The notes beneath the pieces are model-generated. The model made no database searches. It saw only the letters and a program-made list of their open reading frames with translations, and had not been told where the DNA came from. Shown piece by piece: positions 40,910 to 59,779 of a DNA stretch of 64,000 nt. The DNA comes from Candidatus Zixiibacteriota bacterium. GTDB taxonomy: Bacteria > Zixibacteria > MSB-5A5 > GN15 > JACZUZ01. Both the position numbers and the translations under genes were made by a program. The DNA lies in contig JAJRPM010000005.1 in assembly GCA_024280775.1 (NCBI GenBank), positions 1 through 64,000 on the forward strand, in the 5' to 3' direction. The stretch's first letter is position 1, and every line of letters begins with the position of its first letter.

Positions 40910-41944
40910 CTAGGAAGTGTGTGTGAGTTCTCTTGCATCCTGTAGGATATAAGTGACTGAGCTCTCTCGCAAAGATTGTCCACTGCTTTTGTTGGAAGAA
41001 GAGATTATTTCAGCGACTATCGAAAGCGCTATTTCCTGTGCTGTTTCAGAGCCAATGTCTAATCCCACTGGCGCATGTAGTTTGTTCCAGTGTTGGTCGG
41101 ACCATTCAGGATGATTGTGTTTCAGGTCATTAACTATTCGTGTAATTCTTGAGCGTGATCCAAGCACACCGACATAAGATATGGATGAAGAAAGCAACTC
41201 CTGCAGGAGTTTGGTTTCGAGGTCGTCATTGTGAGTGAGAAGGACGGCCATGTCACTGCCAACAGTGACGGCTCTCACACAGTCAAGCGCTTCTGTTGAA
41301 CTTATCAATGTCACTCGCCATTGAAGAAACTCTGCTAATGTTTGGAGCGCTGTTGCGATTTCTCCAGCTCCGAATATCTCTAGTGATTTCTGCGGGCTAT
41401 GAATAGTGATTAGCGACTCGCCAGCGGTGTCATCTCTCTCCAATAAGTCATCTCTGTCTCGGTCACAAACGGTATCAAATACCAGCTTGTCATTGACATA
41501 GACTGCTCTTTGCGGTGGAGACGGTGAAAGCTCTTGTTCTTTGCGCCAGCGAATTACACTTTTGCAATTGATATTCTGCTTGAGAGCTTTACGTAAATGG
41601 AATAAGTGTGATGTCTCACGTCTATCAGGCAGGCGCTCCAATAGCACACTCACACTTCCACCGCAACCAAGTCCCAGGCCGAGGATATTATCGGCAACTT
41701 CTTCGGCGCAATAGTGAATCATTTTCGACCCGCCATCCGCAAAGAGCGATGTTGCATGTGAACGGATATCATCCTCCAAACATCCGGCGCTAATGCTTCC
41801 GTAGGTGGCTCCGTCCTCGGCTAGAGCTAGGAGCGCTCCGGGACGGTATACATGTGAGCCGTCGACTGAGAACAAGGTAGCCAAAACGAATGTACGCTCC
41901 GGCTTGCCTAAGTAGCATTCTAGAATGTCATGTAAGTTACGCAT
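40910..41944 (-). CDS. XdhC/CoxI-family molybdenum cofactor insertion factor
   Basis: 344 residues. Two-part layout: XdhC_CoxI N-terminal domain (FVLATLFSVDGSHVYRPGALLALAEDG with the GSxxRxxG-like signature, ISAGCLEDDI, GLGLGCGGSVSVLLE) and an XdhC Rossmann domain (SLEIFGAGEIATALQTLAE, VLLTHNDDLETKLL, YVGVLGSRSRITRI). It helps sulfurate and insert Moco into its partner enzyme. Overlaps the large-subunit gene by 8 bp, so translation is coupled and the partner is clearly the hydroxylase next door. Confidence 0.92.
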   Translation of the reverse strand: MRNLHDILECYLGKPERTFVLATLFSVDGSHVYRPGALLALAEDGATYGSISAGCLEDDIRSHATSLFADGGSKMIHYCAEEVADNILGLGLGCGGSVSVLLERLPDRRETSHLFHLRKALKQNINCKSVIRWRKEQELSPSPPQRAVYVNDKLVFDTVCDRDRDDLLERDDTAGESLITIHSPQKSLEIFGAGEIATALQTLAEFLQWRVTLISSTEALDCVRAVTVGSDMAVLLTHNDDLETKLLQELLSSSISYVGVLGSRSRITRIVNDLKHNHPEWSDQHWNKLHAPVGLDIGSETAQEIALSIVAEIISSSNKSSGQSLRESSVTYILQDARELTHTS

Positions 41945-44666
41945 GACTCTTGCGACCGGCCTTGATCGCCTGCAAGACTTTTTCGGCGGTAATCGGTAGT
42001 GACATTATCCGTGCGCCCACTGCGTCATCAATTGCGTTTGCAATAGCTCCCATCACCGGAAGTATGCTACCTTCGCCGACTTCTTTGGCGCCGAATGGGC
42101 CATTGGGGTCTACAACATCGACGGTGGTTGAATGAATACGGGGAATATCCGCTATAGTCGGCAGTATGTAGTCATGGAAATTGGGATTCTTGAGATAGCC
42201 ATCTTTTTGCTCCACGCTTTCCATCAATGTTTCGCCGACACCCATCACTATTGAGCCTTCGACCTGGCCGTGAAAAGTTATAGGGTTAATCACCGTACCA
42301 GAATCATGCGCGGCATAGACATCATCTACTGTCACTACTCCGGTTTCGGTGTCAACTGTCACTTCGGCTACCATCGCGCAGAAACTATACGCCGGTGAGG
42401 TACCGACGGCGGCGCCTTTGTATGAACCGCCTAGTTTTGGCGGGTTGTAGATTCCCACTCCGATTAGTGGTCCTTTGGCGCGGAAATATTTTAGTGTCAG
42501 TTCTGCAAATGACATTTCGGTTTTGCCATCTGTTACAGTATTGCGCTTGAACTGCAACTCTGTCATATCACCTGCGACTTTGGATTTCCAGAATTCGGTC
42601 AGGATTTTCTTGATGCTGTTTCCGGCGTCTATCACTGCGTTTCCGGCCATGAAGGTTACTCGTGATGAGTAGGAGCCTAAGTCTGTGGGGGTGATTGCAG
42701 AGTCCGAAGAAAATATCGTCACGCGGTCATAGTCAATTCCCAAAGCTTCGGCGGCGATTTGTGAGAGCACAGTATCTGAGCCTTGGCCAATTTCTGAGGC
42801 GCCGGTGTGCAGGAATACACGTTCGCCGTCTTCGGCTACACGAATGTTACAAGCTGAATGCGGGAAGTCACCACGGATAATCGGGTATCCGGCGCCGGAG
42901 ACGAAACTTCCGAGGCCGACACCAATTCCTTTGCCGAACGGTAGCTTGCTATGTTTCTTTTCATAGTCAGACATTTCGACGGCTTTGTCGAGACACTCTT
43001 CGAGTCCGCAACTAGTGACTTGCAGATCATTGACTGTTTTGTAGTTCTCGTAAACGAGATTTCGTCTACGTAATTCAATCGGCGATATACCAAGGTCTTT
43101 GGCGGCCATATCCAAATGCGATTCAAGCGCGAAACGCGGTTGGGGTGTGCCATTGCCGCGCATTGCTCCGCATGCTGGCAGGTTTGTGCAGATTCTTTGC
43201 GCATCGAATCGGAAATTTGGCAGACGGTATAGTATTGGTAACAAATTGCCGGAGTAGTATGAGGTGATTATTCCGTAGCTGGTGTAGGCGCCTCCGTCTA
43301 GTGTCACTTCCTCATGGGTTGCCAGTAGTGATCCATCTTTATCGAATGCGGATTTCAGACGGACTGTTTGCGCATGTCTGCCGCGTCCGTGTTGGAACAC
43401 TTGTTTTCTATCGAAGGTCATCATCACTGGGCGTTTTAGTTTTCGAGCGGCGATGACGCTTAGGAATTCCAACTTGGTGGTTTCGGCTTTGCCACCAAAT
43501 CCTCCGCCTAGCGCTGGGCGTATTACTCTTAACTTACTTTGGGGAATATCCAATACGCGGGCTAGTTGCACTTGCACTAAATGCGGATTCTGATTTGCGG
43601 TCCAGACATTTATCAGGTCGCCTTCTTCCATCGCCAAAGCGGCGTGTGGTTCCAGGAAAGCCTGATGAATTTTTTGTCCTTGAAAAGTATCTTCGCGCAC
43701 ATAGTCGGCGCTCTTGAAGGCGGCTTCCACATCACCGAAGTTTTGATGAATATCGGTGTTTACATTGCCTTTGAAAGTTTCATGCAATTGCGGAGCGGAA
43801 CTCTTTTTTGCATCTTCAGCTTTGAACACACCTTCTAGTGGCTCGTATTCGACTTTCACATTCTCTGCTAAAAGCTCTGCTACTCTTCTGTCAGTTGCGC
43901 AAATAGCCGCAACCGGTTCGCCCACATGTCGCACTATCTCTTTCGGCAGAATCGTTTCGTCATATCTGGCGGGTGTGACACCATATTTTACCTGGGAGAC
44001 ATCAGCGGCTGTTAAGACTAGTAACACACGTTTGTCTTTCAGAGCTTCGCTTGTATCAATGCTTTTGATACGCGCATAGGGATATGGACTTTTGACTAGC
44101 GCGCCATAGATCATGCCGGGGAAATAGTAATCATCGGTGAATCGCGCTTTGCCGGTTAGTTTATCGAGTATGTCTTTGCGCATCACAGGCTGGCCAACTA
44201 CGTCATGGCGCTTACTGCCTGTGGACTCAGGAGCTTCATCTTTCAAAGCCGCGAGCATGCGCACATAGCCGGTGCAACGACAAATATGTCCCGATAGTGT
44301 CTCTTCAATTTGCTCATCCGATGGGGAAGGTTCTTTCTCTATCAGGGCCGCGGAGCTAACGACCGCACCTGAAGCGCAAAAACCGCATTGGAAGGCGCCG
44401 TGTTTGGCGAAGCGCTCAATTACCGGACTTTTGATTCCTTCGACTGTGGTAATCTCCGCGCCATCACTTTCGACTGCTAGCATCAGACAGCTATTCACCG
44501 GTTCGCCATTTAGCAAGACAGTGCAGGCGCCGCAATCGCCAGTGTCACATCCTCGTTTGGATCCGCTGAGATGTATTCTATCGCGCAACATATCAAGTAG
44601 GGTTTCGTTGACATCCACTACCAGATTGCGTTCTTCGTTGTTTATAGTGACATGAATCTCAGGCAT
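41937..44666 (-). CDS. Molybdenum hydroxylase, fused 2Fe-2S and Moco subunits (4-hydroxybenzoyl-CoA reductase-like)
   Basis: 909 residues from ATG 44666, with AAAGGAGG ahead. Residues 1-155 are the small subunit: plant-type 2Fe-2S CDTGDCGACTVLLNG plus the CGFC...CRCTGY cluster. Residues 160-909 are the Moco subunit: ALGGGFGGKAE, the AMRGNG loop, and the catalytic Glu in GPFGAKEVGEGS. In most relatives these are separate genes. Xanthine dehydrogenase, CO-dehydrogenase-like and 4-hydroxybenzoyl-CoA reductase (Hcr) share this layout. Hcr is favoured only because the cluster makes benzoyl-CoA reductase; removing the para-hydroxyl would feed it. The substrate cannot be read from sequence. Confidence 0.88.
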   Translation of the reverse strand: MPEIHVTINNEERNLVVDVNETLLDMLRDRIHLSGSKRGCDTGDCGACTVLLNGEPVNSCLMLAVESDGAEITTVEGIKSPVIERFAKHGAFQCGFCASGAVVSSAALIEKEPSPSDEQIEETLSGHICRCTGYVRMLAALKDEAPESTGSKRHDVVGQPVMRKDILDKLTGKARFTDDYYFPGMIYGALVKSPYPYARIKSIDTSEALKDKRVLLVLTAADVSQVKYGVTPARYDETILPKEIVRHVGEPVAAICATDRRVAELLAENVKVEYEPLEGVFKAEDAKKSSAPQLHETFKGNVNTDIHQNFGDVEAAFKSADYVREDTFQGQKIHQAFLEPHAALAMEEGDLINVWTANQNPHLVQVQLARVLDIPQSKLRVIRPALGGGFGGKAETTKLEFLSVIAARKLKRPVMMTFDRKQVFQHGRGRHAQTVRLKSAFDKDGSLLATHEEVTLDGGAYTSYGIITSYYSGNLLPILYRLPNFRFDAQRICTNLPACGAMRGNGTPQPRFALESHLDMAAKDLGISPIELRRRNLVYENYKTVNDLQVTSCGLEECLDKAVEMSDYEKKHSKLPFGKGIGVGLGSFVSGAGYPIIRGDFPHSACNIRVAEDGERVFLHTGASEIGQGSDTVLSQIAAEALGIDYDRVTIFSSDSAITPTDLGSYSSRVTFMAGNAVIDAGNSIKKILTEFWKSKVAGDMTELQFKRNTVTDGKTEMSFAELTLKYFRAKGPLIGVGIYNPPKLGGSYKGAAVGTSPAYSFCAMVAEVTVDTETGVVTVDDVYAAHDSGTVINPITFHGQVEGSIVMGVGETLMESVEQKDGYLKNPNFHDYILPTIADIPRIHSTTVDVVDPNGPFGAKEVGEGSILPVMGAIANAIDDAVGARIMSLPITAEKVLQAIKAGRKSHA

Positions 44667-45528
44667 CGGCGCCTCCTTTGAGTCGCGCAAATGCTGTCTC
44701 ACAAGCACGGATGACACCTACCTGAGCTAGTTCCATTCGATATTCAGCGCTGGCGCGAATATCTGAAATCGGCGCTAGTTGTTTTAGCGCTAATTGGGCT
44801 ACGCGTCCCCAAAGTTCAGCATTGGCTACTTCGCCACTGGCTTGCAGTGTATCAGTGTCCATTAGTATCGGGGTTGGTGAGGCGGCGGTGACGGCTACTT
44901 TCAATGATGACACATTATCGCCGTCTAACTCCAAAGCGCAGGCGACACCTACTATGGCTATGTTCACCACTTTGCGCGGGCCGAATTTGATATAGGATGT
45001 GCCTTTGTTGTTAGCGCGACAGCTAACGCGCAGTAACAATTCATCGGAGTTTAGTTGCGTTTGCCGAGGGCCGGTGAAGAAATCCACTAGCGGCACGCTA
45101 CGTTCTCCGGTTGAACTGGCGATAGTCACTTGTGCGTCATTGACCATCAGGATAGGCGGAATATCAGCGCAGGCGGCGGCTGTACATAGATTGCCTCCGA
45201 CTGTGGCGCGATTGCGAATTGGCGGGCTGGCCATGTTGCGAACCATATCGGCAAACCCGGGGTTCATTTTGCTGAGCTTTGACTTTTCTATTTGTGAGAC
45301 TGTGACACTCGCGCCGAGAGTGCATTTGTCGCCTTCAATTGTAAGAGCCTTGAGCTCATCAAGGTGACGTAGTGACACTAAGCCCGGAGGCGCGGCGCGG
45401 CCTTCTTTCATCATCACTACCAAGTCGGTGCCACCGGCGAGCGGCGTGGCTCCTTTGGTATTTTCAAGGGCCTTTAGCGCTTCGGCGATAGTCGCCGGGG
45501 ATGTGTATTCTAGTGGGGGGATATACAT
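44659..45528 (-). CDS. FAD-binding (medium) subunit of the molybdenum hydroxylase
   Basis: 289 residues of the CoxM/XdhB/HcrB fold: PLAGGTDLVVMMKEG near 32 and NRATVGGNLCTAAACADIPPIL near 107 bind FAD, YIKFGPRKVVNIAIVGVA follows. True 4-hydroxybenzoyl-CoA reductases carry an extra Cys-rich insert with a 4Fe-4S cluster in this subunit; I see no such insert here, so electrons would run the usual FAD to 2Fe-2S to Mo path. Overlaps the large subunit start by 8 bp; 12 bp after the dehydrogenase gene. Confidence 0.9.
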   Translation of the reverse strand: MYIPPLEYTSPATIAEALKALENTKGATPLAGGTDLVVMMKEGRAAPPGLVSLRHLDELKALTIEGDKCTLGASVTVSQIEKSKLSKMNPGFADMVRNMASPPIRNRATVGGNLCTAAACADIPPILMVNDAQVTIASSTGERSVPLVDFFTGPRQTQLNSDELLLRVSCRANNKGTSYIKFGPRKVVNIAIVGVACALELDGDNVSSLKVAVTAASPTPILMDTDTLQASGEVANAELWGRVAQLALKQLAPISDIRASAEYRMELAQVGVIRACETAFARLKGGADA

Positions 45529-45540
45529 ATTGGGTTACGA

Positions 45541-46578
45541 TTACATTTCTATGATTGAACGCAGACCTTTACCAGCGCGTAGTAAATCGAATGCGTCATT
45601 GATGTTCTCAAGTGCAAAACGCGCTGTCACTAGTTCTTTGATCTTGATTTTGCCAAGTCGGCATAGTTCTATGAGTTTGGGATAGTCAACCGGACGACAT
45701 CCGAGTGATCCAACTATTTCCATTTCGCGATACATGATGCGTCCGGCGTTCAGCGCTATATCTTTGCTTGTGAATCCTAGCACGACGAGTCTTCCACCAG
45801 TGCGTAGCGCTTTGAATGCTGTCTCGATGGTCACCGGATTTCCGATTGCCTCAATCGCTACATCAGCGCCGCCACCGGTTAATTTACGCACAGTCTTGGG
45901 CCAGTTCTCATCCTCTTGCGCATTGATAGTGACATTGGCGCCAAAATCTTTGGCCCATTGGAGTTTCTCATTGGAGATATCTACCGCGATAACCGAGCCA
46001 CCTACTGCGTTTGCCACTTGCACAACATTGATACCAACACCGCCACAGCCCAGCACAACTACTGTATCGCCGGGGCTTACATTCGCGCGGTTCTTGACTG
46101 CATGAAACGGTGTCGAAACCGCATCGGCGATAATTGAACCTTCATTAAGAGGGATTTCATCGGGCAAATGGAAAGTGTCCTTTGCAGGGGAAACCAAGTA
46201 TTCGGCATAGGCGCCGTCGACATTGTTACCAAACATGATATTGTTCTCGCAGATATTTTCGCGTCCGGTGCGACAGGCTTCACAGGCTCCGCAAGTTAGG
46301 ACTGCAGGTAGCAACACTCTGTCGCCTTCGGCGAAACCTTTTGCGTCCTTTCCAATTCCAGCGACTGTACCTGAAGGTTCGTGACCCAGAATCAGCGGAG
46401 GCTTTTTGAAAGTCGGGACTCCGTGATCTATATAGTGCATGTCGGTGTGACAGACACCGCAAGCGGCTACTTTGATTAACAATTCACCTTGACCGGGTTC
46501 CGGACGAGGGACTTCTTCAACTACTAATGGCTGATTGGGCCCGTGAAACACTGCGGCCTTCATGGTATTCTTTGACAT
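45541..46578 (-). CDS. had: Zinc alcohol dehydrogenase, 6-hydroxycyclohex-1-ene-1-carbonyl-CoA dehydrogenase-like
   Basis: 345 residues of the medium-chain dehydrogenase family. Catalytic zinc: CGVCHTD, GHEPSG and a later Cys; structural zinc: [18 protein letters not shown] site [15 protein letters not shown]. The phrases [19 protein letters not shown] and [12 protein letters not shown] resemble the Had enzyme that oxidises the 6-hydroxy ring acyl-CoA to the 6-oxo form in the benzoyl-CoA pathway. Position in the cluster supports this. A general alcohol dehydrogenase is the alternative. ATG 46578 is chosen for the GAGG in front. Confidence 0.8.
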
Positions 46579-46639
46579 CACATCCTCAACTGCATTATTA
46601 CTGTAGATATTTTATGTAAATTGTTAGGCGAAATTATCG

Positions 46640-46939
46640 TTAATCAGATTTGGCTCTGGTGAAAATCATCATTGTTTCGTCTGCCTCATTGTCGAAACAT
46701 AGTGTGCATCCATCGCAATTCATTTCTTTCAATGGCACAGTCTTTACTTCCAATCCTAAGAAACAATATGTTTCAAGCGCCTCTTTCAATCTGTCACCAG
46801 AGCAGGAAAACTGTTGTTTCCAACCTTCTCCTTCGGGTGTGTCGGTGGGGCAGGATTTAGCGGCGCTTGTTGGAACATCAGGTTTATTCCCTTTGCCGAT
46901 ACTATCACTGGCTGAATGTTCATCATCTGCGGAAAACAT
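46640..46939 (-). CDS. Small cysteine-rich protein with CxxCxxC in the benzoyl-CoA reductase operon
   Basis: 99 residues, unrecognised. The first 45 are disordered and polar. The conserved-looking half reads LKEALETYCFLGLEV and then MNCDGCTLCFDNEADE with a C-x2-C-x2-C motif, lacking the fourth Cys-Pro of a ferredoxin. Two further cysteines lie upstream (SCPTD, FSCSG). It may bind an Fe-S cluster or metal and could carry electrons or aid assembly of the reductase, whose genes start 5 bp upstream. ATG follows AAGAGAT. Not a named family I know. Confidence 0.65.
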   Translation of the reverse strand: MFSADDEHSASDSIGKGNKPDVPTSAAKSCPTDTPEGEGWKQQFSCSGDRLKEALETYCFLGLEVKTVPLKEMNCDGCTLCFDNEADETMMIFTRAKSD

Positions 46940-46944
46940 ATCTC

Positions 46945-47769
46945 TTATCCGGCGCTGGCTTCCAACGCTTGCTCTTCGGCTAGTTTTTTTAGACGACGTT
47001 GCCCCAGTATTGCGGCGCCGAAAGCTGTCACAAATTGAACGATGTCATCCGCCGGGACATTGACTTTCACATCCACCTGATCTCCAATAGACTTGGCCAT
47101 TGCCTCAAACCGCAGGATTCCGCCGATTAGAGTGAATTCAGGTTCTGCTTTGATTCGACGTAATAGCTGCAAACAGCGTTCGACTAGTGAGGTGATAGCG
47201 CCGAGCATGATATCCGCCGGTGGTGTTCCCAGAGAGAGATGGTTTATCACTTCGGATTCCGCGAAGACAGCGCATACTCCGGAAATTGGCACTGGCTCAC
47301 GTGATGTCGAAAGCAGAGGCCCGATTTCTTCGGTTTCAAAACCCATGTAGCGAGCGGTTTTCTCTAAGAAGGCTCCGGTTCCCGCGGCGCATTTGTCATT
47401 CATACGAAACGAAGATACTTTCGAGTTCTCATCGACACGACTGGCTTTCATTGTCTGGCCGCCAACATCCAGGACACTACGAGTGTTGGGAAATAAATAG
47501 CCCGCGCCGCGTGCGCTGGCTGTCAGGTCTGTTACATGCACATCTTTGAAAGTTACCTGATGTCGCCCGATGCCTGTTGCTATTATGTAGTTAATATCTT
47601 CACGGTTCAACCCGGCTTTCTTAATGCAACTCTCAAGGGTTGCAGTGGCTACTTGTAATAATTTGAATCCGGTAGGGCGTAGTTCCCGGGCTAAGATTTC
47701 TCCCTGGTCGTTTACAATAACAACTTTGGTATAAGTTGACCCTACATCTATTCCGGCTGTGATACTCAT
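46945..47769 (-). CDS. Benzoyl-CoA reductase ATPase subunit (BcrA/BcrD, BzdP/BzdQ type)
   Basis: 274 residues of the BadF/BadG/HgdC ASKHA ATPase family. DVGSTYTKVVIVNDQGEI is the first phosphate loop, SVLDVGGQTMKA the second. [21 protein letters not shown] and VCAVFAESEVINHL give one Cys each for the 4Fe-4S cluster held between the two ATPase subunits. ATP hydrolysis here powers low-potential electron transfer into the aromatic ring. Both ATPases of this operon are about 270 residues, the short (Bzd-like) arrangement. Which is P and which is Q I cannot assign. Confidence 0.88.
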   Translation of the reverse strand: MSITAGIDVGSTYTKVVIVNDQGEILARELRPTGFKLLQVATATLESCIKKAGLNREDINYIIATGIGRHQVTFKDVHVTDLTASARGAGYLFPNTRSVLDVGGQTMKASRVDENSKVSSFRMNDKCAAGTGAFLEKTARYMGFETEEIGPLLSTSREPVPISGVCAVFAESEVINHLSLGTPPADIMLGAITSLVERCLQLLRRIKAEPEFTLIGGILRFEAMAKSIGDQVDVKVNVPADDIVQFVTAFGAAILGQRRLKKLAEEQALEASAG

Positions 47770-47789
47770 TATCTGACTCTCACTTCCTG

Positions 47790-48605
47790 TTATTTCTCTA
47801 CTGATTCTTGTGGACTGCGACGGCTTTCGAAGATATGGTCCATCGCAAAAAGCGCCGCGCCAAGCGCTCCCATGTAGTGAGAGTCGTTGCTGACATTGAC
47901 CTTCAATTCCAATCTATCCTCGAGCGCCTGCACCATGCCAATATTTTTTGTCACACCACCGGTGAATGTCACTTCTTCTTCGATTCCAACTCGGCGAAGC
48001 AAAGCCGCGGAGCGAGTAGCCATCGACTGATGCACACCCCAAAGTATGTCTTCGATTTTCTTACCCTTTCCTAACCAGGAAAGCACTTCGGATTCAGCGA
48101 AGACAGTACAGGTTGTGCTGATTCGAATTGCATGCTGATGTTTCAGCGCGGTAGGTCCAAGCTCCTCCAGCGGAATATCCAGCGCGGCGGCGGCGGCGCC
48201 TAAAAATCTGCCAGTGCCAGCGGCGCACTTGTCATTCATGCAAAAATCAAGAATCTCACCGGTTGGACTCACGCGAATCGCTTTAGTGTCCTGTCCGCCC
48301 ATATCGACTACTGTGCGAGTCTTCGGAAACATTTTGACAGCGCCTCGTCCATGGCAACTGATTTCTGTTACTTGCGCATTGCCGAATGTCACACGATAGC
48401 GCCCGTAGCCTGTTCCTATGACATACTCAATTTCCTGTTCACCAATGCCGGCGTCTTCGCGCGCCATGTTGAACGAGTTTTGCGCCGCCATCACTACGTT
48501 GGCTCCGGTGTCAATTAAGGCCCGGCTGACAATGGCGCCGTCTTCGTCGATGATAACAGCTTTGGTTTGTGTCGAGCCGACATCGACTCCCGCTGAATAT
48601 GCCAT
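47790..48605 (-). CDS. Benzoyl-CoA reductase ATPase subunit, second copy
   Basis: 271 residues, same family as the next gene: [55 protein letters not shown] with the cluster cysteine, [15 protein letters not shown] with the second. Two different activase-type ATPases side by side is the mark of class I benzoyl-CoA reductase; simple 2-hydroxyacyl-CoA dehydratases have one homodimeric activase. GGAGTAAGC precedes ATG 48605. 20 bp to its sister, 25 bp from the upstream catalytic-subunit gene. Confidence 0.88.
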
Positions 48606-48630
48606 GCTTACTCCTCTTTAATCCTTGCTA

Positions 48631-49977
48631 CTAAACTGTTTCCTTGTGCCGTCTGCGTGAAGCCAGTCCTTCGAAAAATGCGTCGATACGATTTTTCATC
48701 TGCGCTTCTGAAACTACTCGCCTATCCATCATATCTGATTCAAGAAACAGTGTTGCGATATCGTGTTTATCGGTTAAGTAGCGCCGTCCGTCAGCAAGAC
48801 CTGTTGATACGGTGCGGCAACTTTTGATTGGATGATAGATGACACCATCAACCGAAAAATCTTTCATCATGTTTTCCACTGCGCGTTCCTGATGAAACAT
48901 GCTGTCCATTGCGTCACGCACGCTCAACAGTGTTCCTTCAGCCAAGCTGGCAATTGGGTTTTTCAGGTCATACTCAAAACCGCAGTTAGCGCCACCTGAG
49001 GCGAACCATAGGTAGGTGGAGTGAATGAAAGTCCCGCCCCATTCGCTGAACATTTCGTTAAAGCGTCGGAAAATCGGGTAACAAGGGACACCGACGAATA
49101 CGAGTCGGTATTTCTCTTCGGTAATCGCTCCGATTCCATGCTTGGCTTTGTATTCCATTTCCTCAACCAACTCTTTGAAATATCGTCCTCCAGCTTCCTC
49201 CCCCCGGAAACCGTTGGCTACGCCAAGGTAGATTGTGCCGTCGGTTAGGGCGTTGAATAGTGACGGTCTGTTTTGGTTGAGTTCGAGAATGCGTTTCCAA
49301 CTGACACTGATGTCATTGGCGTGGCCCATAATTTCACGTAGTTTGTCTATGTCGAATTTCTTGCCGGTTACCTTTTCGCATAGTTTTATCAATTCATGAA
49401 TCTGCGCTTCTACATAGCGGCGGTCATTTTCGAAATGCCGCTCACCGGGGGCGCTGTTGTCATGGACATCACGTGAGCCGGGTACATCAATTGTGAAAAC
49501 CGGGATTTTGTACATCCGCTCCCAAATTTCGGCCCATTTGATGTAGGTGTTACAAGCATTGGTATATACCGCCAGTGAGGGTTTCGGAATTTTTCCCATC
49601 GGATGATCACCACCGCGAAGTTGCACCGCTACGTCGGCTTTTACATAGCCGCAAATATCTGGGGAGTAGCCATAATCTTCGGCTTCACTTAGGAATTCAT
49701 GTGACACTCGACGCACTGCGGTTTGCAGTGAGTTTATTTCGGGAAACACCACCGGCAAATCGAAAGTTTTGAGTATCTCATTGAAGCTACCCATCACAAA
49801 CACATAGGCCGATTGTCCACCGGTTTCGGCGGTGTGGTTTAGCTCTTCGAACCAATCCCGAAACAGCTGTGCGCCATCACGATTGCCGCGGCCTACTAGA
49901 GTGTCATGCAGGTCGTCAGTTTGGGCTTTGACTCGATTATTCTCAGCGCTTCCGTTGCTTTGATTTTTTTCTGCCAT
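48631..49977 (-). CDS. bcrB: Benzoyl-CoA reductase catalytic subunit B (BzdO/BcrB type)
   Basis: 448 residues of the 2-hydroxyacyl-CoA dehydratase family (HgdB/BcrB/C). Cluster cysteines are visible in YTNACNTYIKWAEIWERMYKIPVF, ASGGANCGFEYDL and HPIKSCRTVSTGLADGRRY. It holds a 4Fe-4S cluster and the ring-binding pocket with its partner subunit and receives electrons from the ATPase pair. Dehydratases such as 2-hydroxyglutaryl-CoA dehydratase share the fold; the pairing with two ATPases and with Dch/Oah/Had genes makes benzoyl-CoA (or a close analogue) the best substrate. TAAAGGAACAA before the ATG. Confidence 0.86.
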   Translation of the reverse strand: MAEKNQSNGSAENNRVKAQTDDLHDTLVGRGNRDGAQLFRDWFEELNHTAETGGQSAYVFVMGSFNEILKTFDLPVVFPEINSLQTAVRRVSHEFLSEAEDYGYSPDICGYVKADVAVQLRGGDHPMGKIPKPSLAVYTNACNTYIKWAEIWERMYKIPVFTIDVPGSRDVHDNSAPGERHFENDRRYVEAQIHELIKLCEKVTGKKFDIDKLREIMGHANDISVSWKRILELNQNRPSLFNALTDGTIYLGVANGFRGEEAGGRYFKELVEEMEYKAKHGIGAITEEKYRLVFVGVPCYPIFRRFNEMFSEWGGTFIHSTYLWFASGGANCGFEYDLKNPIASLAEGTLLSVRDAMDSMFHQERAVENMMKDFSVDGVIYHPIKSCRTVSTGLADGRRYLTDKHDIATLFLESDMMDRRVVSEAQMKNRIDAFFEGLASRRRHKETV

Positions 49978-50007
49978 TGTAAATTGTTCCTTTAGTCTAT
50001 ACTGGAA

Positions 50008-51204
50008 TTAGGCGAACAGGATATTTTCCAGGAAGGTCTCAACCTGCAGACCAATACCTTCAAAGGACGTCATGTTTTCTTCAAATTCACTCACAAAATA
50101 TGGAATCCCTGCTTCGTCCAGCGCATAGGTGTAAGCCACTTGCTCTTCGAGCCCCGGCTCACACATTTTTGCCGCGGCTACAATCACCGCCTCGGCGCGT
50201 GATTTGCGCACACGTGTGAGTAACATCTCTTCTTTGAGTTTGCGATTGTCATGCTGTACCGGACTGTAGGAAGAGCGCTCTATATATGACTCTGCTAGAT
50301 TGTAGATTGGATTACCGGTATTTGGCACATCATCGGTTATCCATCGCAGACCGATTAAGAAATCATCATCAACTACATAGCATGACTGCCCCAACATCCG
50401 CACCATATCCAGCGGCGGTTGCTCGCAAAAAGCGCCTTCGAACACTACGCGGATTCTGTCCTGTTGTCGTTCACTACGTTCTTTGATTAGTGGAAGCGCC
50501 CAGCGTAGCAATTCATTGTGCTCTTCGCGCGGAATTATTCCAGATAGCGCTACTAATGCGTAGGCGTCCTCAGCGGAAATCAACCAGGGAGTTTCACGCT
50601 TGATGTCATAGAGGTCGCGCATCAACTCACGGTTTTCATTGAATACATTTATGCTATTGGTTATATCAGCGTCAGTAACTTTGCTTCCGGTTACCGCGGT
50701 GATTGTTTCGAGCAGGCGTGAGTATTCATCTTTGAGATACTCCACACTGTGACTTGAATTAGGATTCTGCGGCAAGTAGAGAATCTGGCAGGGATAGTCA
50801 TGATTCCTGCCCCAAATAGCCGCTAAGTTACGCGCGGCGTCGCAGATTGGGTGTGACACAAACATATCCAAAGTAATATTCTTGCTTAGTGACACTTCGA
50901 GCGTGGTTTTAATTATCGAGCAGAGATAGGAGCCGAAGTGAGAATCTGCATGTGTCGAATCAAGTTGTGTACCCCGCATCTTTACCGGCAGCGCTCCTGC
51001 GGCGTGGGCCAGCTCTTCGGGAAAATACACTTGGAAATGCCCGATTACTTTGCCGCCGTTTTCTCGCCAGCGCGCAACAGTTGGGAAGCTCGTGTCTTCC
51101 AGCAAATCTCTGCAGGCGCAAAGCGCATCTTTCAGGTCTTTGTTGCGCCATTCAGGAAAGACATTTGTGCTATTGTCTGCGCTATTGAATGTGTTGTTGG
51201 TCAT
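50008..51204 (-). CDS. bcrC: Benzoyl-CoA reductase catalytic subunit C (BzdN/BcrC type)
   Basis: From ATG 51204 (MTNNTFNSADNS) 398 residues, same fold as the neighbouring subunit. FVSHPICDAARNLAAIWGRN, ILYLPQNPNSSHSVEYL, DLYDIKRETPWLISAEDAY and a late Cys (AAKMCEPGLEEQVAYTYALDEAGIPYFVSEFEEN) match BcrC/BzdN. VKMRGTQLDSTHADSHFGSYLCSIIKTTLE near residue 80 supplies another cluster Cys. The frame stays open upstream to 51324, but that part overlaps the TetR gene and is not family-like. First structural gene after the regulator (22 bp). Confidence 0.87.
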   Translation of the reverse strand: MTNNTFNSADNSTNVFPEWRNKDLKDALCACRDLLEDTSFPTVARWRENGGKVIGHFQVYFPEELAHAAGALPVKMRGTQLDSTHADSHFGSYLCSIIKTTLEVSLSKNITLDMFVSHPICDAARNLAAIWGRNHDYPCQILYLPQNPNSSHSVEYLKDEYSRLLETITAVTGSKVTDADITNSINVFNENRELMRDLYDIKRETPWLISAEDAYALVALSGIIPREEHNELLRWALPLIKERSERQQDRIRVVFEGAFCEQPPLDMVRMLGQSCYVVDDDFLIGLRWITDDVPNTGNPIYNLAESYIERSSYSPVQHDNRKLKEEMLLTRVRKSRAEAVIVAAAKMCEPGLEEQVAYTYALDEAGIPYFVSEFEENMTSFEGIGLQVETFLENILFA

Positions 51205-51226
51205 TCTGCTGTTCGTCCTTGTTGGT

Positions 51227-51874
51227 CTAGTTTGATATTTGTGTCGCGCCGGTAATCCCGCGCAAATACAAATCAACGAGACGCTCAATAACATTCTGCG
51301 AATCATTTCTCTCGGAGGGGTCATACCACATGTTGACCCAATTCAGAGATCCGAATAGAAACAATGTGTTCAAACTTGTTGTGTGTTCGTCGGATTTCCC
51401 GAACCTGGCAAGGGCTGAGCGTACCAAATCATAGTATTCTCTGCGCAGGCTAAGGACTCGCTGGTAATAGTCACCACTTAGAGAGTCAAGCTCATGAAAA
51501 CAGACTTTTAGTTCCTGCGGATGGTTAAGAAAATAGCCGAGATGATTCTCCACCACTAAACGCAAACCAGTTTCAGGGTTTGTCACCCCTGCGAGTTTTT
51601 CTTGTAGCATCGCTATCAGAGCGGTAAAAGTATTGCGCTGAATCGCAAAGAGCATCTCGTCTTTGCTTTTGAAATAGTAGTAGATGCCCGAAAGGCCGAC
51701 TCCGCCTCGCGCGGCAACTTCGCGCACTGAGGCTCCCTGGAATCCGCGCTCGGCTATTACTTCTGCGGCGGAGCTTAGAATATCAGTCAATTTCTTTTGG
51801 AATTTTGGCCCTTGTGTCGCGCCGGAGTCCTGCCGGGCGGCGTCGGTCGGTATGTGCTTGTCGGGGTGTGCCAT
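51227..51874 (-). CDS. TetR-family transcriptional regulator of the aromatic operon
   Basis: 215 residues from ATG 51874, with AGGGA in front; a TTG 11 codons upstream was rejected. The N-terminal helix-turn-helix reads LSSAAEVIAERGFQGASVREVAARGGVGLSGIYYYFKSKDEML (TetR signature YYYFKSKDE near 80). The C-terminal domain has TetR_C-like helices (LGYFLNHPQELKVCFHELDS, FLFGSLNWVNMWYDPSER), the FadR/PaaR-like class that often senses acyl-CoA. It leads the reductase operon and has a palindrome at its own promoter, so self-repression released by an aromatic acyl-CoA is a fair hypothesis. Confidence 0.88.
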   Translation of the reverse strand: MAHPDKHIPTDAARQDSGATQGPKFQKKLTDILSSAAEVIAERGFQGASVREVAARGGVGLSGIYYYFKSKDEMLFAIQRNTFTALIAMLQEKLAGVTNPETGLRLVVENHLGYFLNHPQELKVCFHELDSLSGDYYQRVLSLRREYYDLVRSALARFGKSDEHTTSLNTLFLFGSLNWVNMWYDPSERNDSQNVIERLVDLYLRGITGATQISN

Positions 51875-51909
51875 TGTGTCCCTAGGAACGTTATTGATAA
51901 ATAACAAAT

Positions 51910-51921
51910 CGAACGTTCGTT
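51910..51921 (-). promoter_or_regulatory. Probable TetR operator
   Basis: GAACGAACGTTC on the minus strand (arms GAACG and CGTTC around AA; overlapping the perfect 10-base palindrome CGAACGTTCG at 51910-51919). It lies between the -10 box and the regulator start, right at the expected start of transcription. The form is typical for TetR-family sites. Confidence 0.65.
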
Positions 51922-51924
51922 CTA

Positions 51925-51953
51925 ATTATACAGATTATGGACCCCAGCGTAAA
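51925..51953 (-). promoter_or_regulatory. Promoter of the TetR-benzoyl-CoA reductase operon
   Basis: On the minus strand: -35 TTTACG (51953-51948), spacer 17, perfect -10 TATAAT (51930-51925) with the extended TG just ahead (TGTATAAT). The operator follows immediately. Confidence 0.65.
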
Positions 51954-52115
51954 GGATAAATTGACCGTTAAATTAACTATACCTCTACGATCAACTACTA
52001 GTTATGCACAATCATCAGTTGAAACATCGCTAAGTCACACCCGGACAGCTTAGTGGATTATAGCGGCCCATCAACTCGGGTACGAGTAATTATTTTTCCA
52101 AGAATCCAACCACAG

Positions 52116-52901
52116 TTAGCTATTTGACCATTTTGCGGCGCGTTTTTCCATGAAAGCGGTTAAGCCTTCATGCGCGTCAGCGGTGGTCATTAGCTCCTTT
52201 AGGTAGATGTCTTCGACATCGCCCAGCGCTTCGGTAAAAGAACGATTCAGACCTGTTCGAATCGCCTTTTTGGTCAGACGTAGAACGACTCCTGAATTTG
52301 CTGTCAGGGCGCTGATGAATTCGGCGCTCTTTGCTTGGAATTCATCCACCGGATAGACTTGATTGATGACACCCTGCTTGAGAAGCTCCTCGGCTTTCCA
52401 GCTATCTCCGGTTAGTAGAAACTCGTAGGCTTTCGCGGCGGTCATGGTTTGCGGCATACGCAAGGCGGCAATCGGCGGAAAGACACCGACTTTTATTTCC
52501 GGTTGACCAAATTTTGCGCGCTCGGAGGCAAGTATCATATCGCAAAACATCGCCACCTCACAACCGCCGCCAAGCGCTGAGCCATGAACCAAAGCAATAG
52601 TCGGCGCTTCGAACTTATCCAGCAATCTGAACATGCGATGAAATGTCTCAATCATTTTCCCGGCGAGCTCGTCGGTATGCTCGGCGACATCCACTCCGGC
52701 AGAAAACACTTTTCCTTTGGCGCGAATCACCAGCGCTTTTAGATCACGACCTGCGTTCAACGATTCGAGCGCCGAATTGATTTCCTCCATCATTGCGATA
52801 TTGAGCACATTATACTCCGGTCTCGCTAGAGTCAGCTCTGCAACTCCGTCTTGCACGGATGTCTTTATGCTTTGATATTCTGTTTGTGTTGCAACACTCA
52901 T
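52116..52901 (-). CDS. dch: Cyclohexa-1,5-diene-1-carbonyl-CoA hydratase-like enoyl-CoA hydratase
   Basis: Crotonase-fold enzyme, 261 residues, the usual Dch length. Oxyanion-hole motifs: AKGKVFSAGVDVAEHT near 62 and HGSALGGGCEVAMFCDMILASE near 108. The GxxxxxxGVD and CEVAMFCDM wording matches Dch, which adds water to the diene made by benzoyl-CoA reductase, giving 6-hydroxycyclohex-1-ene-1-carbonyl-CoA. GGAGCATAGAAT precedes the ATG. It lies between the SDR and the regulator on the same strand. A generic enoyl-CoA hydratase is the alternative. Confidence 0.82.
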   Translation of the reverse strand: MSVATQTEYQSIKTSVQDGVAELTLARPEYNVLNIAMMEEINSALESLNAGRDLKALVIRAKGKVFSAGVDVAEHTDELAGKMIETFHRMFRLLDKFEAPTIALVHGSALGGGCEVAMFCDMILASERAKFGQPEIKVGVFPPIAALRMPQTMTAAKAYEFLLTGDSWKAEELLKQGVINQVYPVDEFQAKSAEFISALTANSGVVLRLTKKAIRTGLNRSFTEALGDVEDIYLKELMTTADAHEGLTAFMEKRAAKWSNS

Positions 52902-52941
52902 ATTCTATGCTCCTGTGCCATTAGCTCGACACACATTCTCA

Positions 52942-53691
52942 CTACATGTATTGTCCGCCGTCGACTTTGATTACTTCACCAGTGATATGCCGGGCTTGCT
53001 CGCTACATAGGAACAACACAACCTCCGCGACATCTTTCGGCTCTCCGAGTCGACCGAGCGCTGTTTCATCAAGCGCCTTTTGGCGAATCTCCTCGGGTAA
53101 GTTGGCCATCATATCAGTGAGAATCATCCCCGGGGCAACAACGTTGACATTGATATTACTAGCGCCTAATTCACGGGCTACCGATTTAGTCAGACCTATT
53201 ATGCCGGCTTTCGAGGCCGCGTAATTTGCCTGGCCGAATTTGCCGCGCAGACCGTTTATTGAGGAGATATTGACAATCTTGCCGGATTTTTGTTTTCGCA
53301 TTGAAGGCGAGACTGCGTTGATTAGGTTGAAACAGCCTTTTAGGTTTACTGCAATTACATCATCCCAGGCGGATTCACTCATTTTCCAAATTACACCATC
53401 GCTAGTGACACCGGCGCAGTTGACGAGAATGTCAATGTGATTGAACTTCTCCAACGCTTGTGAAATCATTTCAGAGACGGCGGAGTGTGAGGAAACATCA
53501 CACTCTATCGCCAGCGCTTTGGATCCGAGCTTTTCAATTGCAGTGACAATCTCGCCGGCCTCGGCGGGTTTGTACAAATGATTGACAATTACACTAGCGC
53601 CGCTTTTGGCAAGCGCCAAGGCAACGGCGGCGCCGATTCCAGTGGCGCCACCGGTCACCAAGGCTACTTTATCTTGAAGAATCCTCGCCAA
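52942..53691 (-). CDS. Short-chain dehydrogenase (FabG/PhaB-like), probable 3-hydroxyacyl-CoA dehydrogenase of the pathway
   Basis: 249 residues of classical SDR: cofactor motif TGGATGIGAAVALA (residues 14-27), NCAG at 88-91, ISSINGLRG with the catalytic Ser, YAASKAG with Tyr/Lys near 155, and GMILTDM. FabG- and acetoacetyl-CoA reductase-like proteins look the same; set between Oah and Dch it could oxidise 3-hydroxypimeloyl-CoA after ring opening. TTG start 53691, three bases after the oah stop (TAGGAATTG), so coupled. Confidence 0.82.
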   Translation of the reverse strand: MARILQDKVALVTGGATGIGAAVALALAKSGASVIVNHLYKPAEAGEIVTAIEKLGSKALAIECDVSSHSAVSEMISQALEKFNHIDILVNCAGVTSDGVIWKMSESAWDDVIAVNLKGCFNLINAVSPSMRKQKSGKIVNISSINGLRGKFGQANYAASKAGIIGLTKSVARELGASNINVNVVAPGMILTDMMANLPEEIRQKALDETALGRLGEPKDVAEVVLFLCSEQARHITGEVIKVDGGQYM

Positions 53692-53694
53692 TTC

Positions 53695-54705
53695 CTAGGC
53701 GCCCTTCAATGCAGAGCCACACATGCCGCAGAATTGATGTACACTCGGAAGCTGTGTCACACCGCATGACGGACAGGTGTGCTTGTAGACACCATACTTG
53801 GATTCCGAAGAACCACCCTCAGCAGCGACCTTACGTAAGCCCATGTAATCGGCTTTGCGCTTTTCTACAAACGCCTGCATGCCTTCATTGGGTTCCCAGT
53901 CATTGAAATGCAGGGCCAACCAGTCACGCGCATGACCGATAGTTGCGAACCAGATTTGCTCTTTGAGGTGATTGACCTGAGTTTTGGTGTAGCGCATGCA
54001 TTCGGGGAATTTGTTCAGCATCTTTTCAGCCATGATGTTGCAGGCTTCATCGAGTTTTTCGCGCGGAACTACCTGATTGACCAATCCCCATTCGAGGGCT
54101 TTGTCGGCTCTAATTTTTTCATTGAGGAATAATATCTCACGCGCGCGACGGTCACCGACGAATATCGGTAGCCACTGCGTGGCTCCGCCACAGGCAACCG
54201 AACCGACGTTGGTTCCTATTTGGCCAATGTAGGTGTCGTCAGCCATGATGGACAGGTCGCAGGCCATGTGGGATTCATTTCCGCCACCGACCGCCATGCC
54301 ATTGAGGCGGCAAATTATCGGCTTGCCGCATTTGAGCATCGCTTCGATGTATCCAGCGAAATAGCCCATATATTTGTAATAATCGCGTGGTTTCTGAGTG
54401 TAATACTCGGCGTATTCTTTGACATCCCCGCCGGTGCAAAAGGCTTTCTCGCCAGCGCCGGTGAAAATTATCACTCCGACACTGTCATCCCAGGTTGCAT
54501 CGGTGAAAGCGGTCATTAGTTCACGCAGGCAGGGGGTATTGTAAGCGTTGTATGAATGCTCGCGATTGATAGTGATGCGCGCAATCCAGTCTTTCTTCTC
54601 ATAGAGTATTTCTTTGAATCCATACTCCGCTGCGCTTTTCGGCTCAAACAAATTCTCCATAGTCCCCTCAACATCCAACTTTTTCTCGAGTGTCTCAATA
54701 GCCAT
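53695..54705 (-). CDS. oah: 6-oxocyclohex-1-ene-1-carbonyl-CoA hydrolase-like enzyme with zinc-ribbon tail
   Basis: Crotonase-fold ring-opening hydrolase, 336 residues. Residues 1-285 match Oah/BamA wording: FTGAGEKAFCTGGDVKEYAEYY, NGMAVGGGNESHMACDLSI, GSVACGGATQWLP. Two oddities: the insert present in the second half of Thauera/Azoarcus-type Oah, as I recall it, is absent, and the C-terminus adds YKHTCPSCGVTQ...FCGMCGSALKG, a four-Cys zinc ribbon. It converts 6-oxocyclohex-1-ene-1-carbonyl-CoA to 3-hydroxypimeloyl-CoA. AGGAG precedes ATG 54705. First gene of the dch-side operon. A MenB-like or other crotonase is possible. Confidence 0.75.
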   Translation of the reverse strand: MAIETLEKKLDVEGTMENLFEPKSAAEYGFKEILYEKKDWIARITINREHSYNAYNTPCLRELMTAFTDATWDDSVGVIIFTGAGEKAFCTGGDVKEYAEYYTQKPRDYYKYMGYFAGYIEAMLKCGKPIICRLNGMAVGGGNESHMACDLSIMADDTYIGQIGTNVGSVACGGATQWLPIFVGDRRAREILFLNEKIRADKALEWGLVNQVVPREKLDEACNIMAEKMLNKFPECMRYTKTQVNHLKEQIWFATIGHARDWLALHFNDWEPNEGMQAFVEKRKADYMGLRKVAAEGGSSESKYGVYKHTCPSCGVTQLPSVHQFCGMCGSALKGA

Positions 54706-54755: not shown

Positions 54756-54779
54756 GTCAATTCTAATTCCCGAATTGAC
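54756..54779. promoter_or_regulatory. Perfect dyad upstream of oah
   Basis: GTCAATTC and GAATTGAC, 8-bp perfect arms with an 8-base spacer (TAATTCCC), about 50-75 bp before the oah start. Likely a protein-binding site; it differs from the TetR palindrome at 51.9 kb, so a second regulator, perhaps the nearby AraC protein, may act here. The remaining 300 bp up to the AraC gene has no gene. Confidence 0.5.
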
Positions 54780-58238: not shown

Positions 58239-58339
58239 GCTAGACTGTTACAAAAGAATTAGCTTGACGAATTAGTTCGCAGGATATACTTTACCAGCAG
58301 AGAAGAGTAGCGCTAACCTTATATTGGAAGGTTGTCTTG

Positions 58340-59779
58340 ATGGCGAATTCGTACCGAATTTCTAAACGTGGCTTGTGGATTTCGGCCTTGGCGTTGTGTT
58401 TTGTTTTGCACCCGCTTTTTTGGGCGCACGGCTCGAGTGTGCCGTCTTTCAGCTATGCTGAAAACGCAGGAGATTGGCTTGGCGAAAATATCGCCAATGC
58501 AGGAGATGTAAATAACGATGGTATCGATGACCTAATTGTGGGAGCTCGAAAGCACCTGGGCACAAATGGACTCGCTACCGTATTATCGGGAGCTGACGGT
58601 ACTGTTCTGTATCGCTATGAGGGATTCTCCGGAGCTAACCTTGGCTCCTCAGTTGACGGTATTGGCGATATCAACAATGACGGGTTTGACGATTTCGCTA
58701 TAGGTGAGTTCAGTATGCCTCATGGGAAAATCTATGTTCGCTCCGGAATTGACGGGACTGTTTTGTTGACTATTGAAGGCGGTAATTATGGCACGATGGG
58801 AAACTCAGTAGCCGGAATTGGTGATGTCAACGATGATACTGTTCCTGACATTGGAATTGGAGTTAACGGTGTGGTTCGAGTCCATTCGGGAGTTGACGGA
58901 GCGCTACTATACACTCTGTATGCTGATGTAAGTGGATGGACGGGGTTTGGTGATAATTTGGACGGCGCTGGTGACGTGAACGCAGACGGCTATGACGACA
59001 TTATCGTTGGCGCCATGTATCAAAGCGAAAGCGCGGAGTGCTTCGCGAGTGGAAAGGCATACGTTTTTTCGGGCGCTGACGGAAGCCTTCTTTATTGTTA
59101 TCCAGGGGAGAGCTGTTACCGGTACCTTGGGATTGCAGTTAGCGGTGTCGGTGATGTCAATTCAGACGGGCACGGAGATTTTGCGGTGAATGGACAGAGC
59201 AGGGGCAAAGTTTACTCAGGGATTGATGGCCAGGTATTGTATGGTCTCATGCAACAGGGGAACAGTCTTTGGCCTTCGCTCGGCACAATAGCGGACATTG
59301 ATGGTGACGGTGTTTCTGATATACTCGCCGCGACACACCACGGACGATATATTATTTATTCCGGGGCTACAGGACTTCGAGCGGCTTGGTCAGGACTGTC
59401 CAATCCTTTGCTGGATGGAGTGAATGGTGGTCGATTGGTTGGAACAGGAGATTTCAACGGTGACGGAATCTCAGATATTGCATTTGCGGATTACCTCGAC
59501 AATGCCGCCGGAGATTCTGCCGGTGTAGTTTACGGCCTTTCTATTACCCCCGGTGTAGATTGTTGCTTCACACGTGGTGATTTTCTCGCTGATGGTTTTG
59601 TCAATATTGCAGATGTAACAGCCGCTGTCGCTAGAATATTTTCAGGTGGAAGCGCTACGGCTTGCCCTGACGACGCTGACGCTAATGCTGATGGCGCTTT
59701 CAATATTGGCGATGTTACATATCTTGTCGGACATATTTTCGGAACGAATCCACGACTGCCCTGTGTCGCGGGACAATAG
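58340..59779 (+). CDS. Secreted FG-GAP/integrin-like repeat protein with dockerin-like C-terminus
   Basis: 479 residues from ATG 58340, with GGAAGG ahead. The signal peptide ends near residue 32 (FWAHGSS). Six to seven FG-GAP repeats with Ca-binding loops (AGDVNNDGIDDLIVGA, GDINNDGFDDFAIGE, GDVNADGYDDIIVGA, GDFNGDGISDIAFA) predict a seven-bladed propeller. The tail has two EF-hand-like units (GDFLADGFVNIADVTAAVARIF and DANADGAFNIGDVTYLVGHIF) flanked by Cys, a dockerin-I-like module typical of surface proteins in FCB-type candidate phyla. Role: probably adhesion or surface display. Confidence 0.85.
   Translation: MANSYRISKRGLWISALALCFVLHPLFWAHGSSVPSFSYAENAGDWLGENIANAGDVNNDGIDDLIVGARKHLGTNGLATVLSGADGTVLYRYEGFSGANLGSSVDGIGDINNDGFDDFAIGEFSMPHGKIYVRSGIDGTVLLTIEGGNYGTMGNSVAGIGDVNDDTVPDIGIGVNGVVRVHSGVDGALLYTLYADVSGWTGFGDNLDGAGDVNADGYDDIIVGAMYQSESAECFASGKAYVFSGADGSLLYCYPGESCYRYLGIAVSGVGDVNSDGHGDFAVNGQSRGKVYSGIDGQVLYGLMQQGNSLWPSLGTIADIDGDGVSDILAATHHGRYIIYSGATGLRAAWSGLSNPLLDGVNGGRLVGTGDFNGDGISDIAFADYLDNAAGDSAGVVYGLSITPGVDCCFTRGDFLADGFVNIADVTAAVARIFSGGSATACPDDADANADGAFNIGDVTYLVGHIFGTNPRLPCVAGQ

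Follow-up and report, generated by a model that had tools for sequence, protein, structure and literature searches.

A predicted MBR-type class I aryl-CoA reductase and its ring-opening genes in a Zixiibacteriota genome, with relatives in many phyla

Does a bacterium of the candidate phylum Zixiibacteriota carry genes for the reduction of aromatic acyl-CoA rings, and if so, which type of reductase do they encode? The question is raised by a 64-kb stretch of contig JAJRPM010000005.1 (positions 1–64,000; hereafter the window), in which an earlier note, made from the letters alone, had recognised a class I benzoyl-CoA reductase (BCR) together with genes for ring opening. In our follow-up, subunit scores, trees and gene context all point to an enzyme of this class with ring-opening genes beside it, and the array probably codes for a class I aryl-CoA reductase that depends on ATP and is of the methylbenzoyl-CoA reductase (MBR) type, together with the enzymes that act after it to open the ring. 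The MBR-type reductases characterised so far are niche enzymes for methyl- or halobenzoate from a few denitrifying Proteobacteria; Mbr itself we take to be the 3-methylbenzoyl-CoA reductase of Thauera chlorobenzoica.

Typing of the reductase and layout of the array

Every gene that had been named in the earlier note is an intact open reading frame (ORF). The two ATPases, P (46945–47769) and Q (47790–48605), match the Pfam family BcrAD_BadFG at 182.6 and 215.9 bits, and the two iron-sulfur subunits, O (48631–49977) and N (ORF 50008–51324), match HGD-D at 208.9 and 211.8 bits, bearing out the note's two different activase-type ATPases and two 2-hydroxyacyl-CoA-dehydratase-type subunits. Translation of N most likely starts at 51204, in agreement with the note's coordinates, giving a gene at 50008–51204; residue numbers of N given here refer to the 438-residue ORF.

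Comparison with protein chains of known structure settles the type of the four subunits as MBR (MbdNOQP). Subunit N scores 542.6 bits with MbdN, versus 119 with HadC and 90 with BzdN, and O scores 551 bits with MbdO, versus 122 with HadB and 87 with BzdO. Among the ATPases, Q reaches 405 bits with MbdQ and 224 with the activase of 2-hydroxyacyl-CoA dehydratase (HAD), and P reaches 299 bits with MbdP, 204 with MbdQ and 176 with the HAD activase. In phylogenetic trees, the window's O falls in a clade with MbdO (support 100/97) and its N in a clade with MbdN (100/99), both apart from the Thauera-type BCR, BZD and HAD references; because the references are few and the HAD and BZD branches very long, we assert only the MBR grouping from these trees. 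Neither subunit lies inside a dehydratase clade, the outcome that the earlier note had set against its own reading. Cysteines C109, C142 and C387 of O and C135, C161 and C388 of N are universal, N C300 is common to MBR and BCR and is not present in HAD or BZD, and both ATPases carry the motifs NDKCAAGTG and C.VFAESEV.

Two neighbouring types were tried and rejected. A Thauera-type BCR is excluded by curated NCBIfam models, as the window subunits fall below every bcrABCD cut-off (TIGR02260, 207 of 487 bits; TIGR02263, 264 of 421; the others, 217 of 578 and 156 of 313). A BZD-type enzyme, which the earlier note had favoured because both ATPases are short, is excluded by the 87 and 90 bits to BzdO and BzdN compared with 543–551 for MBR, and the NCBIfam bzd models reach 84–192 bits against cut-offs of 380–454; the short ATPases are instead homologues of MbdQ and MbdP.

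The reductase genes are part of an array of 14 minus-strand genes, from an Oah-like gene (ending at 54705) to a MocA-like gene (from 40263), with most intergenic gaps measuring 2–60 bases. The Dch-like, Oah-like, Had-like and short-chain dehydrogenase/reductase (SDR) genes do adjoin the reductase, as had been claimed; the array is in fact wider, extending beyond 46640 to about 40263 with a Had-like gene, the medium chain and a fused gamma-alpha chain of a molybdenum hydroxylase, and XdhC-like and MocA-like genes. Pfam matches outside the reductase include ECH_1 (twice), short-chain dehydrogenase and zinc alcohol dehydrogenase. All 14 genes recur in identical order on a 350-kb contig of G001, a second genome of the window's genus, at protein identities of 52–96% (Oah 96, Had 93, Q 92, P 91, O 88, N 85), and synteny persists on the side at 33–40 kb, while the opposite flank differs. 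The arrangement is not due to chance.

From family membership, the cysteines, the operon and the clade, which can be read from the sequence itself, we infer a substrate, an order of steps and an electron donor. Reduced ferredoxin, probably from a KorAB–ferredoxin locus elsewhere in the genome, would deliver electrons to the Q/P ATPase pair, where ATP hydrolysis would lower their potential before they pass to the iron-sulfur subunits N/O. These would reduce benzoyl-CoA to a cyclic dienoyl-CoA, which the Dch-like hydratase, the Had-like dehydrogenase and the zinc-ribbon Oah would in turn hydrate, oxidise and open, with the SDR acting in subsequent beta-oxidation.

Ring-opening genes, substrate and rival explanations

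Two downstream gene sets, A and B, accompany the same reductase clade. Set A consists of a canonical Oah (517–664 bits, cut-off 464) and Had (432–510 bits, cut-off 339) in the loci tested, and is held by Actinomycetota, KSB1, Calditrichota, Bdellovibrionota and Pseudomonadota (Oah only in the last), while set B, with a zinc-ribbon Oah and a variant Had, is held by the window, Chloroflexota, Gemmatimonadota and one Acidobacteriota locus. At three loci (L066, L089 and L105), N/O stand beside an Oah (575–586 bits) and a Had (456–510 bits) that both exceed their curated cut-offs. N/O are the sole HGD-D pair in 14 of the 20 genomes examined, these three with set A among them, and also in the window's own genome. 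Because several genomes hold N/O beside Oah and Had proteins that pass curated cut-offs, the clade evidently feeds a benzoyl-CoA ring-opening route, as judged from gene content. Benzoyl-CoA would be the clade's likeliest substrate, given the set A genomes with a sole N/O pair and the 4-hydroxybenzoyl-CoA reductase (HBCR) that accompanies the same reductase in Acidimicrobiia.

The window's Oah (53695–54705, variant B) belongs to a sister clade of canonical Oah (97/95, in a tree that did not include BadI), apart from MenB. It carries GSVACGGATQWLP at the site where MenB has GSFDGGYG, the SFDGGYG motif being absent, and ends in a CxxC..CxxC zinc ribbon that is present in all 12 of 12 variant-B members. 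The zinc alcohol dehydrogenase Had-B (45541–46581) has TIGR03201 as its best model, with the next at 224 bits, and is 54–64% identical to variant-B Had proteins of Chloroflexota, Gemmatimonadota and Acidobacteriota. A crotonase-family hydratase (52116–52901) is Dch-like by context and clusters with its Dch-like counterparts from other loci (100/99, in a tree with two generic hydratases only). The FabG-like SDR (52942–53691; TIGR01830, 299.6 bits, above the cut-off of 297.8) would serve as the 3-hydroxyacyl-CoA dehydrogenase of the lower pathway, and SDR genes recur beside N in other loci.

Several observations weigh against a benzoyl-CoA pathway read from these genes. Oah and Had score below the curated cut-offs of their best models (TIGR03200, 207.7 of 464 bits; TIGR03201, 258.5 of 338.65 bits), and the Dch-like protein scores 169.0 bits with TIGR03189 (cut-off 292.5) versus 169.6 with a generic hydratase model, its best PDB matches being generic EchA8. 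The O tree does not fix where within the clade MbdO falls, and the FAD chain of the molybdenum enzyme is without the HBCR hallmark. A search for benzoate-CoA ligase, suggested in the earlier note, yielded none over cut-off in the window genome (97.5% complete), where the best protein is acetyl-CoA-synthetase-like (209.6 of 375 bits) and the ligases are only of the acetyl-, acetoacetyl- and FadD-type, plus one weak PaaK-like protein; no class III CoA-transferase (CaiB/BaiF) was found in this genome either. The companion search for KorAB and ferredoxin did recover a locus with KorAB and a YfhL-type dicluster ferredoxin, yet these are common genes and not linked to the array. The gene set can therefore be called complete only in part: reductase and ring-opening genes are present, but Oah and Had are below cut-off (Oah-B being sister to true Oah all the same), Dch is identified by context and clustering only, and the search gave no ligase. 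As to the generic crotonases named in the note, Oah-B groups with canonical Oah; model scores do not separate the Dch-like protein from generic hydratases.

Could the enzyme act on other rings, or the genes belong to another route? The reductase might favour substituted aryl-CoA (3-methyl-, halo- or hydroxybenzoyl-CoA), with Oah-B and Had-B processing the substituted ring products, which we regard as possible though unlikely: the nearest characterised enzyme is a 3-methylbenzoyl-CoA reductase, MbdN is nested inside the clade, and Oah-B and Had-B are unlike the canonical enzymes, but Mbd is a single branch of a clade that many genomes combine with canonical Oah and Had, and that also goes together with HBCR, whose product is benzoyl-CoA. 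A Rhodopseudomonas-type route through cyclohexene-, 2-hydroxy- and 2-oxocyclohexanecarboxyl-CoA, in which the hydratase, SDR and Oah-like protein would take the roles of BadK, BadH and BadI, would account for the adjacency of these three genes, the last a member of the MenB/BadI/Oah superfamily, and for a badI model score of 176 bits. We consider this improbable, as the Oah model scores higher (208 bits), the tree, built without BadI, makes Oah-B the sister of canonical Oah, the array includes a Had-like gene and the MenB-type active-site motif is absent.

Two further explanations question the reductase or its host. N, O, Q and P share a superfamily and the HGD-D and BcrAD domains with 2-hydroxyacyl-CoA dehydratases and their activators; that they form such a dehydratase, and no aryl-CoA reductase, was nonetheless rejected as most improbable, given the 119–122 bits of HAD chains compared with 543–551 for MBR, the two distinct ATPases, the C300 pattern and the ring-opening gene context. 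As for a mis-binned contig with an array foreign to its host, the window's O forms a sister pair with a sequence from Planctomycetota, and the genome, in 17 contigs, may be a metagenome bin. Mis-binning is nevertheless very unlikely, because the separate same-genus genome holds the same array on its 350-kb contig with one flank syntenic, and because the array (GC content 0.49) differs little in base composition from its flanks (0.48–0.49).

Distribution, host and accompanying genes

The predicted MBR-type module is widespread. Scanning GTDB genome contigs, we found at least 80 loci at 70–80% identity and confirmed at least 425 relatives. Loci occur in at least 12 NCBI-ranked phyla, in addition to at least 6 KSB1 loci, with distinct loci numbering at least 20 in Planctomycetota, 13 in Actinomycetota, 9 in Gemmatimonadota, 7 in Acidobacteriota, 6 in Chloroflexota and 5 in Pseudomonadota; the other phyla have single loci, which may be mis-binned. 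On one Armatimonadota-labelled contig (L086), O is nearly identical in the tree to that of the Acidimicrobiia locus L089, and this contig is probably mis-binned. The unbroken order N-O-Q-P is seen in 60 of 81 loci, a total that takes in the window and G001.

Subunit O is 70–80% identical to the window's where RpoB is only 49–63% identical, whereas within the genus O stands at 88% and RpoB at 93%. This higher conservation of O than of RpoB between phyla points to lateral movement of the module among bacteria of different phyla, most of them oxygen-respiring. MbdN branches from within the clade in the N tree, next to Calditrichota and KSB1 (support 96/76, within a set supported at 100/100). Plasmid records held no relative above 30% identity. 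A heme-copper oxidase over cut-off was detected in 27 of 28 other carriers (carriers alone were counted), and in the window genome an aa3-type cytochrome c oxidase likewise exceeds its cut-off; such carriers fit a class I BCR, since this class has been described from facultative anaerobes (PMC10936416).

The window genome measures 3.17 Mb. Its RpoB is nearest to Eisenbacteria by path and then to KSB1, with the deep forks of the tree unsettled, a placement that agrees with the FCB-like host proposed in the earlier note. Two relatives of the same order (L027 in G038 and L028 in G048) carry a different, Thauera-type bcrCBAD with a long BcrA, so that a single order contains both reductase types; BCR subunits B and C of G038 exceed their NCBIfam cut-offs. 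Nine Planctomycetota loci (L039, L041–L043, L053, L055, L060, L064 and L095) have a block upstream of N that encodes a fused CoA-ligase-like protein of about 1150 residues, a thiolase and a fused hydroxyacyl-CoA dehydrogenase/crotonase-like protein of about 824 residues, frequently accompanied by a second HGD-D subunit and an activase; by gene content, it looks like an alternative linked pathway.

Directly downstream of P, the window encodes a CxxC protein of about 100 residues (46640–46939), which has no match in Pfam, NCBIfam or PHROGs. This companion gene is found in 58 of the 81 loci and in at least ten phyla, usually directly 3' of P, with invariant residues G39, W40, Y58, G62, C78 and C81. 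A structure model has a helix/strand core with pLDDT 90–95 (72 for the whole model) and no significant match among PDB folds. Tentatively, the companion may be a partner of the MBR reductase, as a fifth component, cluster-assembly or protective factor, that together with the zinc-ribbon Oah helps the oxygen-sensitive class I enzyme to work in oxygen-respiring bacteria and to spread among them across more than ten phyla.

The molybdenum hydroxylase resembles the HBCR HcrABC in its fused 2Fe-2S and molybdenum subunit (41937–44717), whose alpha part scores 853.5 bits with TIGR03194 (next family 535.5) and 518 bits with PDB 1rm6 (next 321). It differs from HcrABC in falling below the cut-off of 994.55, in the gamma-alpha fusion and in its FAD chain (44659–45528, 289 residues), which matches XdhB-type models best, aligns with HcrB at a 40-residue offset and lacks the 4Fe-4S insert; a true HBCR is excluded by this missing insert. 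The insert is present at L056, L057, L087 and L089, and the HBCR of the Acidimicrobiia reductase locus has it in its beta chain, although the chains of this enzyme, too, are below curated cut-offs. The array ends with genes for a probable XdhC-like factor for molybdenum cofactor sulfuration or insertion (40910–41944) and a probable MocA-like molybdenum cofactor cytidylyltransferase (40263–40907), both assigned from sequence reading and operon position and both 52% identical in G001. At four Blastocatellia loci (L088, L092, L094 and L112), a decarboxylase-like amidohydrolase gene adjoins the reductase, which hints at a hydroxybenzoate-type feed.

A TetR-family regulator (51227–51907; TetR_N and TetR_C_24) lies between N and the Dch-like gene, and TetR genes adjoin N in about 25 other loci, a recurrence that matches the TetR-type regulator MbdR of the mbd cluster (PMC4424350). 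The MbdR operator ATACN10GTAT was looked for and is absent. Upstream of the Oah-like gene, a perfect 8-bp inverted repeat, GTCAATTC-N8-GAATTGAC, occupies 54756–54779; it is not intact in G001, where a block of about 50 bases next to its position is strongly conserved. Elsewhere in the window, 58337–59779 encodes a putative exported, repeat-rich protein with C-terminal dockerin-like repeats, a kind associated with Zixibacteria, and a Lon protease is split into two adjacent ORFs (209–2143 and 2162–2656), possibly by a frameshift.

Precedents and comparison with known systems

The earlier note had suggested aromatic degradation in a new lineage. This is weakened by a class I BCR pathway published in 2024 for Krumholzibacteriota of the FCB superphylum (PMC10936416) and by the same-order relative with a Thauera-type BCR; as such, then, the breakdown of aromatics by FCB-like lineages has a precedent. 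Class I BCR pathways have also been reported in metagenome-assembled genomes (MAGs) from the deep sea that belong to several phyla (PMC6472368), and UBA5794 Actinobacteria are mentioned as having bcrBC (PMC12008989). On the breadth of the MBR-type clade, the literature gave only single-lineage or single-site reports; a module of this type shared by many phyla, the Oah-B/Had-B set and the companion protein were not found, with subscription journals mostly outside the search. Nor did the search bring up a paper that joins Zixibacteria and benzoyl-CoA in title or abstract.

If our reading is true, MBR-type reductases would represent a single branch of a module that many lineages share and that moves laterally between them, with carriers among the MAGs of Planctomycetota, Actinomycetota, Gemmatimonadota, Acidobacteriota, Chloroflexota, KSB1, marine Pseudomonadota and the window's lineage, and ring reduction would be a widespread potential among facultatively oxygen-respiring environmental bacteria. 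Marker models based on bcr and bzd score this module below cut-off, and biochemistry would gain targets, and surveys better markers, from the companion protein and the newly recognised type of Oah.

Among known systems, the Krumholzibacteriota pathway resembles the window in combining class I bcr and ring-opening genes in an FCB-superphylum lineage, but is annotated as bcrABCD and is set beside the window's clade by annotation only. BzdNOPQ shares the two short ATPases and the HGD-D pair, and differs in the low scores of its BzdO and BzdN with the window's subunits. With the Thauera enzyme BcrCBAD the window shares the superfamily, the two-ATPase architecture and, presumably, the chemistry, but it has a short A subunit in place of a long one and falls in a separate clade. 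The closest likeness is to MbdNOQP of Aromatoleum/Azoarcus sp. CIB (PDB 9g87/9gai), in the four subunits, the two short, distinct ATPases, the full-length sequences (O 55% identical), the conserved cysteines and the TetR regulator of both clusters. The window differs from it in its N-O-Q-P gene order, its host in another phylum and its variant Oah and Had; its array has no 3-methylbenzoate ligase or transporter, and includes the HBCR-like molybdenum enzyme and the CxxC companion.

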